Below are positions 34,168 to 51,333 of a stretch of 64,000 nucleotides of DNA, piece after piece. This stretch comes from Sphingorhabdus wooponensis (GTDB lineage Bacteria; Pseudomonadota; Alphaproteobacteria; Sphingomonadales; Sphingomonadaceae): the NCBI RefSeq assembly GCF_003933235.1, contig NZ_RWJI01000001.1, positions 254,001 to 318,000 of the forward strand, in the 5' to 3' direction. Positions within the stretch are counted from its first letter, which is position 1; each line of letters begins with the position of its first letter. The position numbers and the translations under genes are program-made. Under the pieces are notes generated by a model. The model did not search any database. It had not been told where the DNA came from and worked only from the letters and a program-made list of their open reading frames with translations.

Positions 34168-36117
34168 CTAAATGCCTTGTGGCGTAGCATCTCCGACCGG
34201 CGCAGATTTGCCGCGTCCAGCCTTCGGTATGGCGGTGCCTACCGTTGGAATGGACGAAGGCTTTACGACCTTGCCATCATCACGTTCGAATTTGCCAGTT
34301 TCCAAAAGCTGATTTATTTCGTCGCCAGAGAGCGTTTCAAATTCTAGAAGCGCGTTGGCTAGCAGCTGCAGCTGATCATTATGTTCAGTCAGCAAATCGG
34401 TTGCCCGTTTATGCCCGCCTTCAACCAACTTGCGAATTTCGGCATCGATCTTGCGCGCTGTTTCGTCCGACATGGCTGAACGTTGCGACATGCCATAGCC
34501 AAGATAGCCTTCTTGACGCTCTTCATATTGGAGTGGACCCATAGTGTCCGACATACCCCATTGCGTGACCATGTCGCGCGCAAGGCTGGTTGCATATTGG
34601 ATATCGCTCGATGCACCTGAACTGACCTTGTCATAGCCGAAGATTAATTCTTCTGCCACACGGCCACCCATGGATACCGCAAGGTTGGCATGCATCTTGT
34701 CACGGTGATAACTGTAATTATCGCGCTCAGGCAGCCGCATGACCATACCCAAAGCGCGACCACGAGGAATAATCGTTGCCTTGTGGATGGGGTCCGATGC
34801 TGCCTCATGGATCGATACGATAGCATGGCCCGCCTCATGATAAGCCGTCATCTTCTTTTCATCTTCAGTCATGACCATCGACTTACGCTCGGTGCCCATC
34901 ATCACCTTGTCTTTGGCATCCTCAAATTCTTGCATCGCGACCAACCGTTTGCCACGACGTGCGGCCAGTAAGGCGGCTTCGTTCACGAGGTTGGCAAGGT
35001 CAGCTCCGGAGAATCCCGGCGTTCCTCGCGCAATCACACGCCCATCGACATCAGGGGCCAACGGCACTTTTTTCATGTGTACTGCGAGGATCTTGACACG
35101 GCCATCAATGTCCGGACGCGGCACAACAACCTGACGGTCGAAACGGCCGGGACGTAGCAAAGCTGGGTCAAGGACATCAGGTCGGTTGGTCGCTGCAACG
35201 ATGATGATACCTTCATTGGCTTCAAAACCGTCCATTTCGACTAGCAACTGGTTCAATGTCTGTTCGCGCTCATCATTCTGATTGCCAAGGCCCGCGCCAC
35301 GACTGCGGCCTACTGCGTCGATTTCGTCAATGAAAACTATGCAGGGTGCGTTTTTCTTCGCTTGCTCAAACATATCGCGTACACGGCTGGCGCCAACGCC
35401 CACAAACATTTCAACAAAGTCAGAACCCGAGATCGAAAAAAATGGTACGCCAGCTTCGCCGGCAATTGCGCGGGCAAGCAATGTCTTACCGGTGCCCGGC
35501 GAACCAACAAGCAAAGCGCCCTTTGGAATCTTACCACCAAGGCGGCTGAATTTTTGCGGGTCTTTCAAAAATTCGACGATTTCCTGAAGCTCTTCGCGGG
35601 CCTCATCAATTCCGGCGACGTCATCAAAGGTTACCTTGCCATGTTTTTCTGTCAGCAATTTAGCCTTCGACTTACCAAAGCCCATGGCGCCACCCGCGCC
35701 GCCGCCCTTTTGCATTTGCCGCAAAACGAAAAACGCGATGCCTAGGATGAGCAGAAACGGCAGCGCTTGATATAACAGGATTAGAATCAGGCTCGGCTGC
35801 TCTTCCGCTTTGCCTTGAACATCTACGCCTTTTTCATCCAGCAACGGATAGAGGCTATTATCGCCCGGAATTGGAACGGTAACGAAAGCTTCGTCATTTT
35901 GCAGCTTGCCGCTGATACGCTCTGGCGCGATCGCGACGGATTTGACTTCGCCCGCCTCAACCTTGTCGCGGAAAGACGAATAGCTGATGCCCTTCGCCGT
36001 TTCTGACGAACCGTTAAATATCGAGGCGACAAGCAAAAGCGCCACAATAATCCCAGACCAAATGGCCAAGTTGCGGAGCATCGGGTTGCTTTTGGGCTCT
36101 TGTTCGTCGTTCATCAT
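34168..36117 (-). CDS. ftsH: ATP-dependent zinc metalloprotease FtsH
   Basis: FtsH degrades membrane and some cytosolic proteins, including LpxC and sigma32 in E. coli. The 649-residue product has two N-terminal membrane segments (about 16-35 and 108-130), a AAA+ domain with Walker A GSPGTGKT and Walker [11 protein letters not shown], the second region of homology GRFDRQ, and the zinc-binding HEAGH at residues 427-431. It lies downstream of tilS on the same strand, as in many alphaproteobacteria. Two ATGs are in tandem at the start. Confidence 0.98.
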
Positions 36118-49338: not shown

Positions 49339-49644
49339 TTAGCCCTCAAGCAATAAAGCATCGATAATCAGACATTGCGCGCCTTGGGCCACAAGGGCCC
49401 GCGATATCGCAATGTCGGCGACGATGTGGCGGGGCAAATCAAATTCATATTCGGCCAACATCTGCGTCAGCGCCGCCACATCGCCGTGCCATGTTCCATC
49501 CTGCATCTGTGCCGATAGGCATATTTGCGCCCCGGAAAAGGTCAGGCTGTGCCACGGCCGTTCATGCAATATGCCGATGTCGGCAATGGGCATGATTGCG
49601 CGTAAGGCATGTATGAGAGCGCCCGATTCTGTCCGCATGCTCAT
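49339..49644 (-). CDS. Unknown 101-residue protein, coupled to the gene upstream
   Basis: No family was recognised. The product (starts MSMRTESGALIHALRAIMPI, ends VAQGAQCLIIDALLLEG) is mixed alpha/beta, with no signal peptide or membrane segment. Its ATG overlaps the stop of the 68-residue gene upstream (ATGA), so both are one unit. That unit is preceded by a GAAC-N7-GAAC box, which suggests damage-responsive expression. Confidence 0.65.
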   Translation of the reverse strand: MSMRTESGALIHALRAIMPIADIGILHERPWHSLTFSGAQICLSAQMQDGTWHGDVAALTQMLAEYEFDLPRHIVADIAISRALVAQGAQCLIIDALLLEG

Positions 49645-49847
49645 GACCCTTTCCGGCCGTGGATATGGCCCTGTTGGTTATAATTGGACATGAAGTGCCG
49701 CAGCTTTAACTCCATTTCGGGTCTAATTTCTCGCCCCATGCGTATGTCCAGCACAAGCCGCGGATCCCCCGCTGCCATGCGCCCGAATTTGGTCGGTGGT
49801 AGGCCCTGTTCCCGAAGAAACCGTTCAATAAGGCGCGTGATGTGCAT
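49641..49847 (-). CDS. Small HTH-like protein of unknown function (68 residues)
   Basis: The product is basic with a probable lambda-repressor-like helix pattern: TRLIERFLREQGLPPTKFGRMAAGDPRLVLDIRMGREIRP, then a third helix EMELKLRHFMSNY. Similar short proteins with the pattern xFGRxAxGDPRLVxDxRxGRE are common in alphaproteobacteria; no function is known to me. GGAGGAG gives a strong ribosome-binding site. It is the first gene of a divergent pair facing the S24 repressor. Confidence 0.7.
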   Translation of the reverse strand: MHITRLIERFLREQGLPPTKFGRMAAGDPRLVLDIRMGREIRPEMELKLRHFMSNYNQQGHIHGRKGS

Positions 49848-49894
49848 CTTGTCTCCTCCACGTTCGACCCGGATTGGCTTGCCCGAATCAGTAA

Positions 49895-49909
49895 GAACAA
49901 ATATAGAAC
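49895..49909. promoter_or_regulatory. Perfect LexA-type (SOS) box between divergent genes
   Basis: GAAC-AAATATA-GAAC, which on the minus strand reads GTTC-N7-GTTC, is the direct-repeat LexA operator known from alphaproteobacteria. It lies 48 bases upstream of the 68-residue gene start (minus strand), and a TATATT within it could be that gene's -10 box. On the other side it lies 61 bases from the S24 gene start. It could be bound by LexA (not in this window). Confidence 0.6.
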
Positions 49910-49917
49910 AAAAGTGA

Positions 49918-49949
49918 TAGGATAAATCCTACAAGTCTAGGAAATTTCC
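49918..49949. promoter_or_regulatory. Two tandem palindromes, probable operators for the S24 repressor
   Basis: TAGGAT-AA-ATCCTA (49918-49931) and GGAAATTTCC (49940-49949, within TAGGAAATTTCCAA) share the half-site TAGGA. Their centres are 20 bases apart, about two helical turns, so two dimers would sit on the same face and could bind cooperatively as CI does. The second is centred 26 bases before the S24 start codon, which fits autoregulation. Confidence 0.5.
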
Positions 49950-49970
49950 AACCGAACCGGAGGGAACAAT

Positions 49971-50606
49971 ATGGGGGAAGATCCAAGGGCTGCATTGGAG
50001 CGCTTGATTGCCGAAAATGCAGAAGATTTTGCGGGTCTGTCGAAATTGGTCGGCCGTAATCCGACCTATATTCAACAATTTATAAAGCGCGGGTCGCCCA
50101 AAAAACTGCCCGAGACGGAACGCGGGATATTAGCGCGATATTTTGGTGTGGACGAAAGCGTGCTGGGTGGGCCGGATGCGCGCGCGGCCAGAACGGGGAT
50201 GCAGCTTATTCCAAAGCTTGCGGTCGGCGCGTCGGCGGGGCCCGGCGCGATTCCGGGGCGCGAAACGCTCGCGGGGAAAATCGGCTTTGACGAAAAATGG
50301 CTGCGTAAGCAGGGGCTGGATCCGGCCAAGCTATCACTGATTCAAGTGGAGGGCGATTCGATGGCGCCCACGTTGAACCATGGCGATGACATCATGGTCG
50401 ACAACCGTGCGGCAGAAAGCCCATTGCGCGACGGCATTCATGTTATTCGGCTGGATGATGTCTTGATGGTCAAACGGCTGGCCAGCGGACCCGGCGGGCG
50501 TTTGTCGGTTTTGTCCGATAATCCGGCCTATCCCGCTTGGCCCGATGTGGACGGCGCAACCGTCGCGATCATCGGCAGGGTGGTGTGGGCAGGGCGGCGG
50601 CTTTGA
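49971..50606 (+). CDS. S24-family LexA/CI-like repressor with self-cleavage domain
   Basis: The 211-residue product has an N-terminal HTH (about residues 8-62: NAEDFAGLSKLVGRNPTYIQQFIKRG) and a C-terminal S24 domain with Ser130 in EGDSMAPTL and Lys168 in MVKRLA. An Ala89-Gly90 bond lies at the position of the LexA cleavage site, 40 residues before the serine, so RecA-stimulated self-cleavage is possible. It is not LexA itself (different HTH). GGAGGG precedes the ATG and two palindromes and a SOS-type box lie upstream. Confidence 0.87.
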   Translation: MGEDPRAALERLIAENAEDFAGLSKLVGRNPTYIQQFIKRGSPKKLPETERGILARYFGVDESVLGGPDARAARTGMQLIPKLAVGASAGPGAIPGRETLAGKIGFDEKWLRKQGLDPAKLSLIQVEGDSMAPTLNHGDDIMVDNRAAESPLRDGIHVIRLDDVLMVKRLASGPGGRLSVLSDNPAYPAWPDVDGATVAIIGRVVWAGRRL

Positions 50607-50646: not shown

Positions 50647-51333
50647 ATGTCTAACGTCACATCCACGCCCACACAGACGCCGCCGTTGAAGGCTGCGATC
50701 ATTCCCGTCACCCCGTTGCAGCAGAATTGCACTTTGTTTTGGTGCACCGAAACGAACAAAGGCGCTTTGGTTGACCCGGGCGGTGACCTCGACAAGTTAA
50801 AGGCAGCTGTCGCGCAAACGGGCGTCGAGCTTGAAAAATTATTGGTGACGCATGGTCATCTTGACCATTGCGGGCAAGCAGGGATGCTGGCGCAGGAATT
50901 GGGCCTGAAGATTGAAGGCCCGCATGAAGATGACCGTTTCTGGATTGAAAAGCTCGACGGTGACGGTGCGCGTTACGGGATGGAAGCGCATAGTTTTGAG
51001 CCTGACCGCTGGTTGGTCGACGGCGACATAGTGACCGTGGGTAATCTGACGCTCGATGTCATCCACTGCCCCGGCCACACGCCCGGACACGTGATTTTTC
51101 ACCACCAACCCAGCCGTTTGGCGATTGTGGGGGATGTATTGTTTCAAGGGTCCATCGGTCGCACCGATTTCCCGCGCGGCAATCATGCCGACCTGATCAA
51201 TGCGATCACGACGAAACTGTGGCCATTGGGGGATGATGTGACCTTCATTCCCGGCCACGGTCCGACCAGCCAATTTGGCTATGAGCGCAAGCACAACGCC
51301 TTTGTGGCAGACGATGTGCTTGCTGCTCGATAA
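50647..51333 (+). CDS. Metallo-beta-lactamase-fold hydrolase (glyoxalase II-like)
   Basis: The 228-residue product has the zinc-binding HGHLDHCGQAG motif near residues 74-84, further histidines in CPGHTPGHVIFHH (about 140-152), the bridging Asp in VGDVLFQGSIGRTDF and FIPGHGPTS at the end. This resembles the GloB2/YcbL group that hydrolyses S-lactoylglutathione or other thioesters. It follows the S24 gene by 40 bases but probably is independent. Confidence 0.88.
   Translation: MSNVTSTPTQTPPLKAAIIPVTPLQQNCTLFWCTETNKGALVDPGGDLDKLKAAVAQTGVELEKLLVTHGHLDHCGQAGMLAQELGLKIEGPHEDDRFWIEKLDGDGARYGMEAHSFEPDRWLVDGDIVTVGNLTLDVIHCPGHTPGHVIFHHQPSRLAIVGDVLFQGSIGRTDFPRGNHADLINAITTKLWPLGDDVTFIPGHGPTSQFGYERKHNAFVADDVLAAR

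Follow-up and report, generated by a model that had tools for sequence, protein, structure and literature searches.

The window analysed here, a 64,000-nucleotide stretch of the Sphingorhabdus wooponensis genome (contig NZ_RWJI01000001.1, positions 254,001 to 318,000), contains a gene for an S24-type repressor that is read divergently from a coupled pair of small genes, here called P2 and P3 (Table 1). An earlier note, made from the sequence alone, had described this region as a divergent switch with a LexA-type box and twin palindromes, and its base-level description proved accurate. The GAAC-N7-GAAC box reads GAACAAATATAGAAC, i.e. GTTC-N7-GTTC on the minus strand, both palindromes carry the TAGGA half-site with centres 20 bp apart, and the predicted catalytic and cleavage-site residues are all present in the S24 protein, while the opposite unit is coupled through the ATGA overlap at 49641-49644. 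The box and the palindromes were thus correctly listed, but a third element, a GANTC site, had been missed. Operator, LexA box and GANTC site are packed within approximately 70 bp, with a spacing that is near-fixed across genera. By the coordinates, 19 bp separate the operator from the S24 start codon, and 70 bp lie between its other end and the start of P2.

Table 1. Genes and sites of the divergent locus, with positions in the window (HTH, helix-turn-helix).
Feature	Position	Strand	Basis or remark
S24 repressor gene, 211 amino acids	49971..50606	+	N-terminal HTH and Peptidase_S24; Ser130/Lys168 dyad; Ala89-Gly90 cleavage-type site
P2 gene, 68-amino-acid HTH protein in Cro position	49641..49847	-	AlphaFold2 model, gene order
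P3 gene, 101-amino-acid protein, taken as diverged tail-terminator/tail-completion type	49339..49644	-	start overlaps P2 stop (ATGA)
LexA box GTTCTATATTTGTTC	49895..49909	-	motif match, conservation, box type of SOS genes in the same genome
GANTC site TGATTCG in GcrA-type motif YGAKTCG	49884..49890	-	exact motif match, conservation
Outer palindrome 1, TAGGATAAATCCTA	49918..49931	.	base-level check, conservation
Outer palindrome 2, TAGGAAATTTCCAA	49938..49951	.	10-base perfect core GGAAATTTCC at 49940-49949
Operator core TCCTAGACTTGTAGGA, inner inverted repeat of facing half-sites	49927..49942	-	conservation
Metallo-beta-lactamase-fold hydrolase gene, downstream of S24	50647..51333	+	PF00753, E-value 5.5e-34

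Conservation of the intergenic sites

Related loci were collected by an alignment scan of the genome collection with P2, which found 279 relatives; the best 80 loci were kept, from Sphingorhabdus, Erythrobacter, Qipengyuania, Tsuneonella, Altererythrobacter, Croceicoccus and other genera. Motif counts in their intergenic regions were judged against 100 dinucleotide-preserving shuffles, and a second set of 51 loci, partly overlapping the first, was used as well. A divergent S24 gene stands beside P2 in all 80 loci. Where at least 1 kb of sequence is available past S24 (74 loci), the metallo-hydrolase gene lies downstream in the same orientation in 71, so the locus occupies a fixed chromosomal place. 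Among 99 genomes searched, with that of S. wooponensis counted in, P2 was present in 54 and the S24 protein in 82. The earlier note would have counted a lack of box and palindromes in orthologous loci against its switch, and this objection did not hold, although the box is kept in only part of the loci. It is this conservation over the 80 loci that lifts the features above chance.

The operator is most sharply defined by its inner inverted repeat, TCCTAGACNNGTAGGA, which occurs in 75 of the 80 intergenic regions and in none of the shuffles. The form TAGGAN4TCCTA was found in 50 loci (shuffle mean 0.0, maximum 1), and only once without mismatch in the 2.18 Mb genome; in the second set, TCCTAGAC lies within 170 bp in 46 of 51 loci. 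Exactly one copy of the operator core was present in each of 34 out of 61 genomes, always beside an S24 match. These were 34 of the 37 genomes of the genus (it is missing in G009, G020 and G027) and none of the 24 from other families. The reading of the palindrome pair as an operator stood insofar as an S24-type operator does lie beside the S24 gene, although the inner inverted repeat is conserved more than the two palindromes themselves. The S24 protein would bind TAGGA half-sites upstream of its own gene. A wider regulon of this protein was considered and rejected: the genome holds no second exact operator, and the five other one-mismatch places are all inside predicted frames, one of them (L072) within 20 bp of a frame start. 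Five paralogous S24-P2 loci without P3 (L112-L115 and L117, in G028, G031, G043 and G050) have variant operators (e.g. CCTAGACTCTAGG), a LexA-type box GAACN7GAAC and a GANTC site of their own.

GTTC-N7-GTTC is described as the alphaproteobacterial LexA box in passages of PMC7987155, citing Erill 2007. By count the motif is unremarkable here, with two matches in the window, where the shuffles average 1.42 (36 of 100 give at least two), and 48 matches genome-wide against 104 for the reversed control pattern. The second match in the window, GTTCAATGTCTGTTC at 35251-35265 (+), is within chance expectation. Chance as an explanation of the box at the locus was ruled out solely through conservation. 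In either orientation, GTTCN7GTTC occurs in 48 of the 80 loci (shuffle mean 0.4, maximum 3), including all 23 loci from L152 to L174, compared to none for the control CTTGN7CTTG (shuffle mean 0.3), and a LexA-type box is present in 41 of the 51 loci of the second set. The GTTC faces P2 in 29 loci, where the box starts 31-35 bp past the start of the operator core; in the loci with a turned box, the start is 25 bp past the core where the core is intact. Mapped on a tree of the S24 protein (75 rows, five of the 80 loci being too short at S24), the state of the box requires at least 6 changes, against a shuffled mean of 35. Operator and GANTC persist while the LexA box turns over between clades.

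Elsewhere in the genome, approximately 1 kb on each side of 41 of the 46 box positions outside the window was inspected (40 stretches). By a crude reading-frame call, most of these boxes fall inside genes and 10 are intergenic; three more, two overlapping at lexA and one at a dinB-type (IMS) gene, lie in an over-long frame just before the domain of the gene. Eight of these 13 boxes precede lexA (two), recA, uvrA, radA-type, rmuC, dinB-type and mmcB-type genes, identified by Pfam and, for radA, from zinc ribbon and ATPase matches and the sequence. The box type of the locus is therefore that of the genome's SOS genes. The remaining five (L045, L053, L055, L059 and L067) precede no recognised repair gene. 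An exact box in the intergenic promoter region, conserved in orthologues, places P2-P3 among the putative members of the LexA regulon, and LexA control is likely where the box is present, without being a constant core of the design. In contrast to the usual regulon members, LexA would here act on a pair of phage origin, opposite which a second S24 repressor is encoded, and the orientation and presence of the box turn over.

The GANTC site was found in all 80 intergenic regions (shuffle mean 42, maximum 54), with YGAKTCG or its complement in 79 (mean 6.0, maximum 15) and CGANTCG in 52 (mean 3.0, maximum 11), while the control sites GTNAC (7/80), CTNAG (11/80) and CANTG (21/80) stayed below their shuffle means. 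In every locus it lies 41-68 bp (median 49) past the start of the operator core. The middle base is free (T 51, A 16, C 7, G 6) and GA-TC is invariant, which is the pattern expected of a selected methylation site; the flanks are C..G in 49 loci, T..G in 22, C..A in 7 and other in 2. Passages of PMC7987155 give YGAKTCG as the extended motif of GcrA-activated methylated promoters (citing Haakonsen 2015) and report that in SOS genes a LexA box may share bases with a GANTC site. No such overlap is present at the window locus, and loci without a LexA box retain their GANTC. The genome also contains a GcrA gene (PF07750, E-value 1.2e-38) and a CcrM-type RAMA-domain gene (PF18755, E-value 5.9e-21; the match holds one TAA). 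With an exact YGAKTCG site and both genes in the genome, the region resembles a GcrA/CcrM promoter and the site is presumably methylated. It differs from the known cases in that the site is joined with, and does not overlap, a LexA box and a CI-type operator.

Pairings of the two motifs also occur outside the locus. YGAKTCG lies within 30 bp of two of the 41 other box positions, one of them before a dinB-type gene. A LexA-type box at G000:C1:1056113-1056127 (L050), before a dinB-type (IMS) gene, has CGATTCG 33 bp further on and forms a second pairing of LexA box and GANTC. At G000:C1:1177012-1177026 (L053), an AT-rich LexA-type box, GTTCACTATTTGTTC, lies 40 bp away from CGAATCA, again a GANTC site, with no recognised gene adjoining.

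The repressor and the gene pair opposite

The S24 protein matches PF00717 (E-value 7.6e-16) and, over residues 22-210, a PHROG transcriptional repressor family (E-value 3.2e-34). No separate HTH model of Pfam matched, and a PDB sequence search with this protein alone found nothing. In an order-wide alignment of 70 rows including the window copy, the serine is kept in 66, the lysine in 67, the alanine in 62 and the glycine in 64. With a predicted HTH, a Peptidase_S24 domain, the Ser-Lys dyad and the Ala-Gly site, the protein has the sequence features of LexA/CI-type S24 repressors, and by analogy to these it may undergo self-cleavage stimulated by RecA. Two relatives deviate. In G017 (L101, C64:11926-12459) the S24 frame is broken by two in-frame stops, with P2, P3 and the promoter apparently undamaged, which may be an assembly error or decay. 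The orthologue in G034 (L085, C5:51917-52519) is approximately 10 residues short and is without the stretch of the catalytic serine.

The pair opposite had been taken as unknown. This holds only in part, as P2 can be assigned as an HTH protein in the Cro position and P3 as a protein of tail-terminator type. The AlphaFold2 model of P2 is a four-helix HTH with a predicted local distance difference test (pLDDT) score of 84.2. P2-like stretches were found in two plasmid and three phage records, of which four were inspected. On a Bradyrhizobium plasmid, the P2-like gene is paired, in divergent orientation, with a gene annotated as S24 peptidase. This peptidase matches the S24 family described here with an E-value of 3e-15 (33% identity over 169 amino acids, and 52% over the 62 amino acids of the HTH), and the neighbouring PD-(D/E)XK nuclease and DUF1064 genes are presumably of phage type. 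On a Sphingomonas plasmid, the divergent partner of the P2-like stretch encodes an HTH protein that matches the S24 family only weakly (E-value 8.5e-4). For a Synechococcus phage only a weak HTH match (E-value 0.008) was divergent to the P2-like gene, and beside the stretch of an Octadecabacter phage no HTH match was found in the right place. Two viral contigs showed no divergent S24, with wider queries giving only weak matches (E-values 0.003-0.004). In a class-level draw of 142 genomes, 10 had a P2-like match including the own genome, and a divergent S24-type match accompanied it in six of the nine others (L240, L242, L243, L244, L247 and L248, two of them partial). Counting only genomes outside the family, this was the case in five of eight.

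P3 gave no informative Pfam match. PF11367 itself was matched by none of 55 P3 members at E-values up to 1, and the marginal matches of members to other models (best 0.0046, for one member) were taken as chance. However, a profile of the 55 sequences aligned with a profile of PF11367 proteins encoded opposite S24 elsewhere in the order (hhalign probability 97, E-value 1e-10, 70 columns), compared to a probability of 0.2 in a control comparison with P2. The P3 model (pLDDT 83.6) had as its top Foldseek neighbours in the PDB a monocin cap region, Listeria antigen B, a Salmonella protein of unknown function and the virion chain 6tba_4A of a gene transfer agent (GTA). Their E-values range from 7.2e-3 (probability 1.00) to 4e-2, none being below 1e-3, and the lower ranks mix tail terminators with unrelated folds. 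Several tail completion/DUF3168 proteins appeared at similar E-values in a viral structure library, among other matches.

Gene order adds to this relationship. Twenty S24 loci were fetched from other families of the order, only one of which (L128) has P2. In 10 of them a protein with the motif WxSxx[FY]xGx[ER]H is encoded divergently from S24, on its far side, and a further small frame often separates the two. Three such proteins were tested and belong to PF11367, tail completion gp17 (E-values 2e-11 to 8e-26). In the PDB, a profile of six recovers Rcc01690, the tail terminator of a GTA (E-value 8.7e-8), along with SPP1 gp17, and also an unrelated flagellin-type chain. A GafZ-like gene facing S24 in these outgroup loci was considered and dropped, as Pfam returned no such match for the three frames tried. 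By profile, predicted fold and synteny, P3 is taken as a diverged protein of tail-terminator type. With PF11367 gp17 and Rcc01690 of RcGTA it shares a WxSxTFxG region and the place opposite S24; it differs in lacking a Pfam model match, in being shorter and in lying outside any tail gene cluster.

A probable domesticated immunity switch and its alternatives

The locus is probably a tamed phage switch that now serves its host. More specifically, we favour, with moderate confidence, a domesticated temperate-phage immunity switch of CI/Cro type. It would be a fixed chromosomal feature of many Sphingomonadaceae, under repression by the S24 protein, with a LexA input in this clade and a tie to CcrM and GcrA. 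The CI/Cro immunity regions of temperate phages are typified by lambda, 434 and P22. As in these, a CI-like repressor gene is divergent to a small HTH gene with palindromes between them, and the plasmid relative has the same layout. Unlike in a phage, the locus here is a fixed chromosomal place beside a hydrolase gene, with an additional LexA box and GANTC site and a tail-terminator-like second gene.

In such a circuit, the CI-like S24 protein on its TAGGA half-sites would repress the divergent P2-P3 unit and probably also itself, and LexA would act in this genus as a second lock on the P2-P3 side. The GANTC site beside the LexA box would tie the P2-P3 promoter to CcrM methylation and GcrA, i.e. 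to the replication state. Upon DNA damage, RecA* would remove LexA and, if the Ser-Lys dyad and the Ala-Gly site work as in LexA, the S24 repressor as well. P2 and P3 would then be made, and the Cro-like P2 may hold the S24 gene off. From the sites, their spacing and conservation, the gene order and the predicted folds we infer which protein binds which site, the cleavage, the methylation, the induction, the directions of the effects and any bistability.

Several observations weigh against this interpretation. The counts are of loci rather than independent events, and close kin share ancestry. The LexA box is absent from 32 of the 80 loci, e.g. in Tsuneonella, and from 10 of the second set, so that LexA is not essential to the design. 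The proposal of LexA control over the two-gene unit accordingly fits the box on the P2-P3 side in this clade and is qualified by the 32 loci without it and the 19 with the box reversed. In the second set, a GANTC within 110 bp upstream of P2 was found in 49 loci and is missing in 2, and YGAKTCG was found in 43 and is missing in 8. Of the nine other class genomes with a P2-like match, one has a LexA-type box and two have a GANTC upstream; the class-level matches therefore indicate that the CI/Cro-like pairing is wider than the family, whereas the LexA and GANTC wiring is a family feature. A consensus scan found no sigma-70-type promoter, nor did any -35/-10 pair fitting all clades appear by eye, and no promoter is claimed. 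The Foldseek matches of P2 are weak (best E-value 0.48), though mostly to HTH regulators (among them HigA, 434 repressor, 434 Cro and P22 c2), and it is a candidate Cro-like binder of the same operators as S24. A search of the open-access literature found no expression or binding data for this locus, and no title or abstract opening that describes the module. Passages of a Sphingopyxis anoxia transcriptome study (PMC6472365) give lexA, recA, radA, dinG and imuAB and do not name the P2-P3 pair.

A rival explanation would treat the GANTC site and the LexA box as separate ordinary promoter features, with the S24 protein only regulating itself and P2-P3 being a plain SOS operon without any switch. 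The operator indeed lies nearer to S24 than to P2 and its core occurs once per genome where found, and the two further boxes with a nearby YGAKTCG mean that the pairing exists elsewhere in the genome. We nevertheless regard it as unlikely given the dense packing of the three sites at near-fixed spacing over genera and the recurrence of a CI-like gene divergent to a P2-like gene, clearly on a plasmid and in six of nine further class genomes, two by partial matches. That the locus is prophage debris, a decaying immunity region with relic sites, is highly improbable. A phage-type repressor and a tail-terminator-type gene without a surrounding phage would suit it, as would the interrupted frame in G017 and the lost serine stretch in G034, but the promoter is near-invariant, the frames are open and the synteny with the hydrolase extends across genera.

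The relation to gene transfer agents requires a closer comparison. Passages of PMC9632790 describe RogA of Caulobacter as a LexA-like repressor of 213 amino acids with an HTH and an S24-like part without catalytic residues, which represses gafYZ and so GTA production; control by RogA and GafYZ is also treated in passages of PMC11150451 and PMC13236601. The S24 protein could accordingly be the sphingomonad RogA that silences GTA production, with the module switching GTAs on and off under LexA input; we consider this rather unlikely. In its favour, the 211-amino-acid protein of the window has the size and layout of RogA, in an alphaproteobacterium and a phage-derived setting, and a GTA-type cluster lies approximately 31 kb from the S24 locus in the same genome. 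A PF11367-type (GTA g8-like) gene faces S24 in the 10 of 20 other-family loci, and among genomes with an S24 match the GTA marker DUF2460 was found in 45 of 82, compared to 1 of 17 among those without (Fisher p 1.4e-4). However, the latter association is confounded by kinship, as one family lacks both; within the own family it is 28/56 versus 1/4 (p 0.61). With P2, the marker is not associated either (29/54 versus 17/45, p 0.16), being absent from 25 of the 54 P2-bearing genomes. No TAGGA or TCCTA occurs in the first 2.6 kb of the GTA cluster region, and the DUF6456 gene, which we take to be GafZ-type, has a single TCCTA 56 bp before it but neither a palindrome nor a LexA box. The catalytic residues lost in RogA are kept here, and the neighbours differ. 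Size and layout agree with RogA, while the catalytic loss is not found, nor, at the motif level, an operator at the GTA activators. Because the operator is missing at the GTA cluster and at the DUF6456 gene, and the link to DUF2460 holds at the family level only, the S24 protein was not filed as RogA, and a dedicated GTA-repressor role is not supported. The same genome offers another candidate: at G000:C1 ~556.7-557.9 kb (L238), DUF6456 is divergent to a 206-amino-acid XRE protein that ends in an S24-like part and shows no obvious catalytic serine, which is a candidate RogA-GafZ arrangement.

The GTA-type cluster itself (L237, G000:C1:335.4-351 kb) is outside the window. It comprises terminase, portal, capsid, tail tube, gp10-type, DUF2460, baseplate hub and Rcc01698-type genes, and it has a PF11367 gene of its own. 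An Endonuclea_NS_2 domain is also encoded within the portal frame, and this frame is followed by two small tandem frames of nearly identical sequence (L237 5148-6224). The arrangement looks like a nuclease with immunity-type genes inside the GTA cluster.

Possible implications for the host

Beyond the domesticated switch as such, a wider combination can be put forward tentatively. The core-genome switch would integrate three inputs in approximately 70 bp, namely the LexA state, a cleavable CI-like repressor and CcrM/GcrA methylation, such that damage frees a regulator of Cro type and a repurposed tail-terminator protein only when it coincides with a given replication state. P3 could then act as a decoy that spoils the tail assembly of induced prophages or of the host GTA. 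Such a role would explain why P3 is kept in genomes without a GTA.

If the domesticated switch is confirmed, the locus would be a clear example from nature of a phage lysis-lysogeny switch that the host has adopted as a regulator, connected to the SOS response as well as to the cell-cycle methylation system of alphaproteobacteria. It would make testable whether CcrM and GcrA can gate the output of DNA damage, how a fixed promoter gains and loses LexA inputs, and what task a tail-terminator-like protein has outside of a phage.

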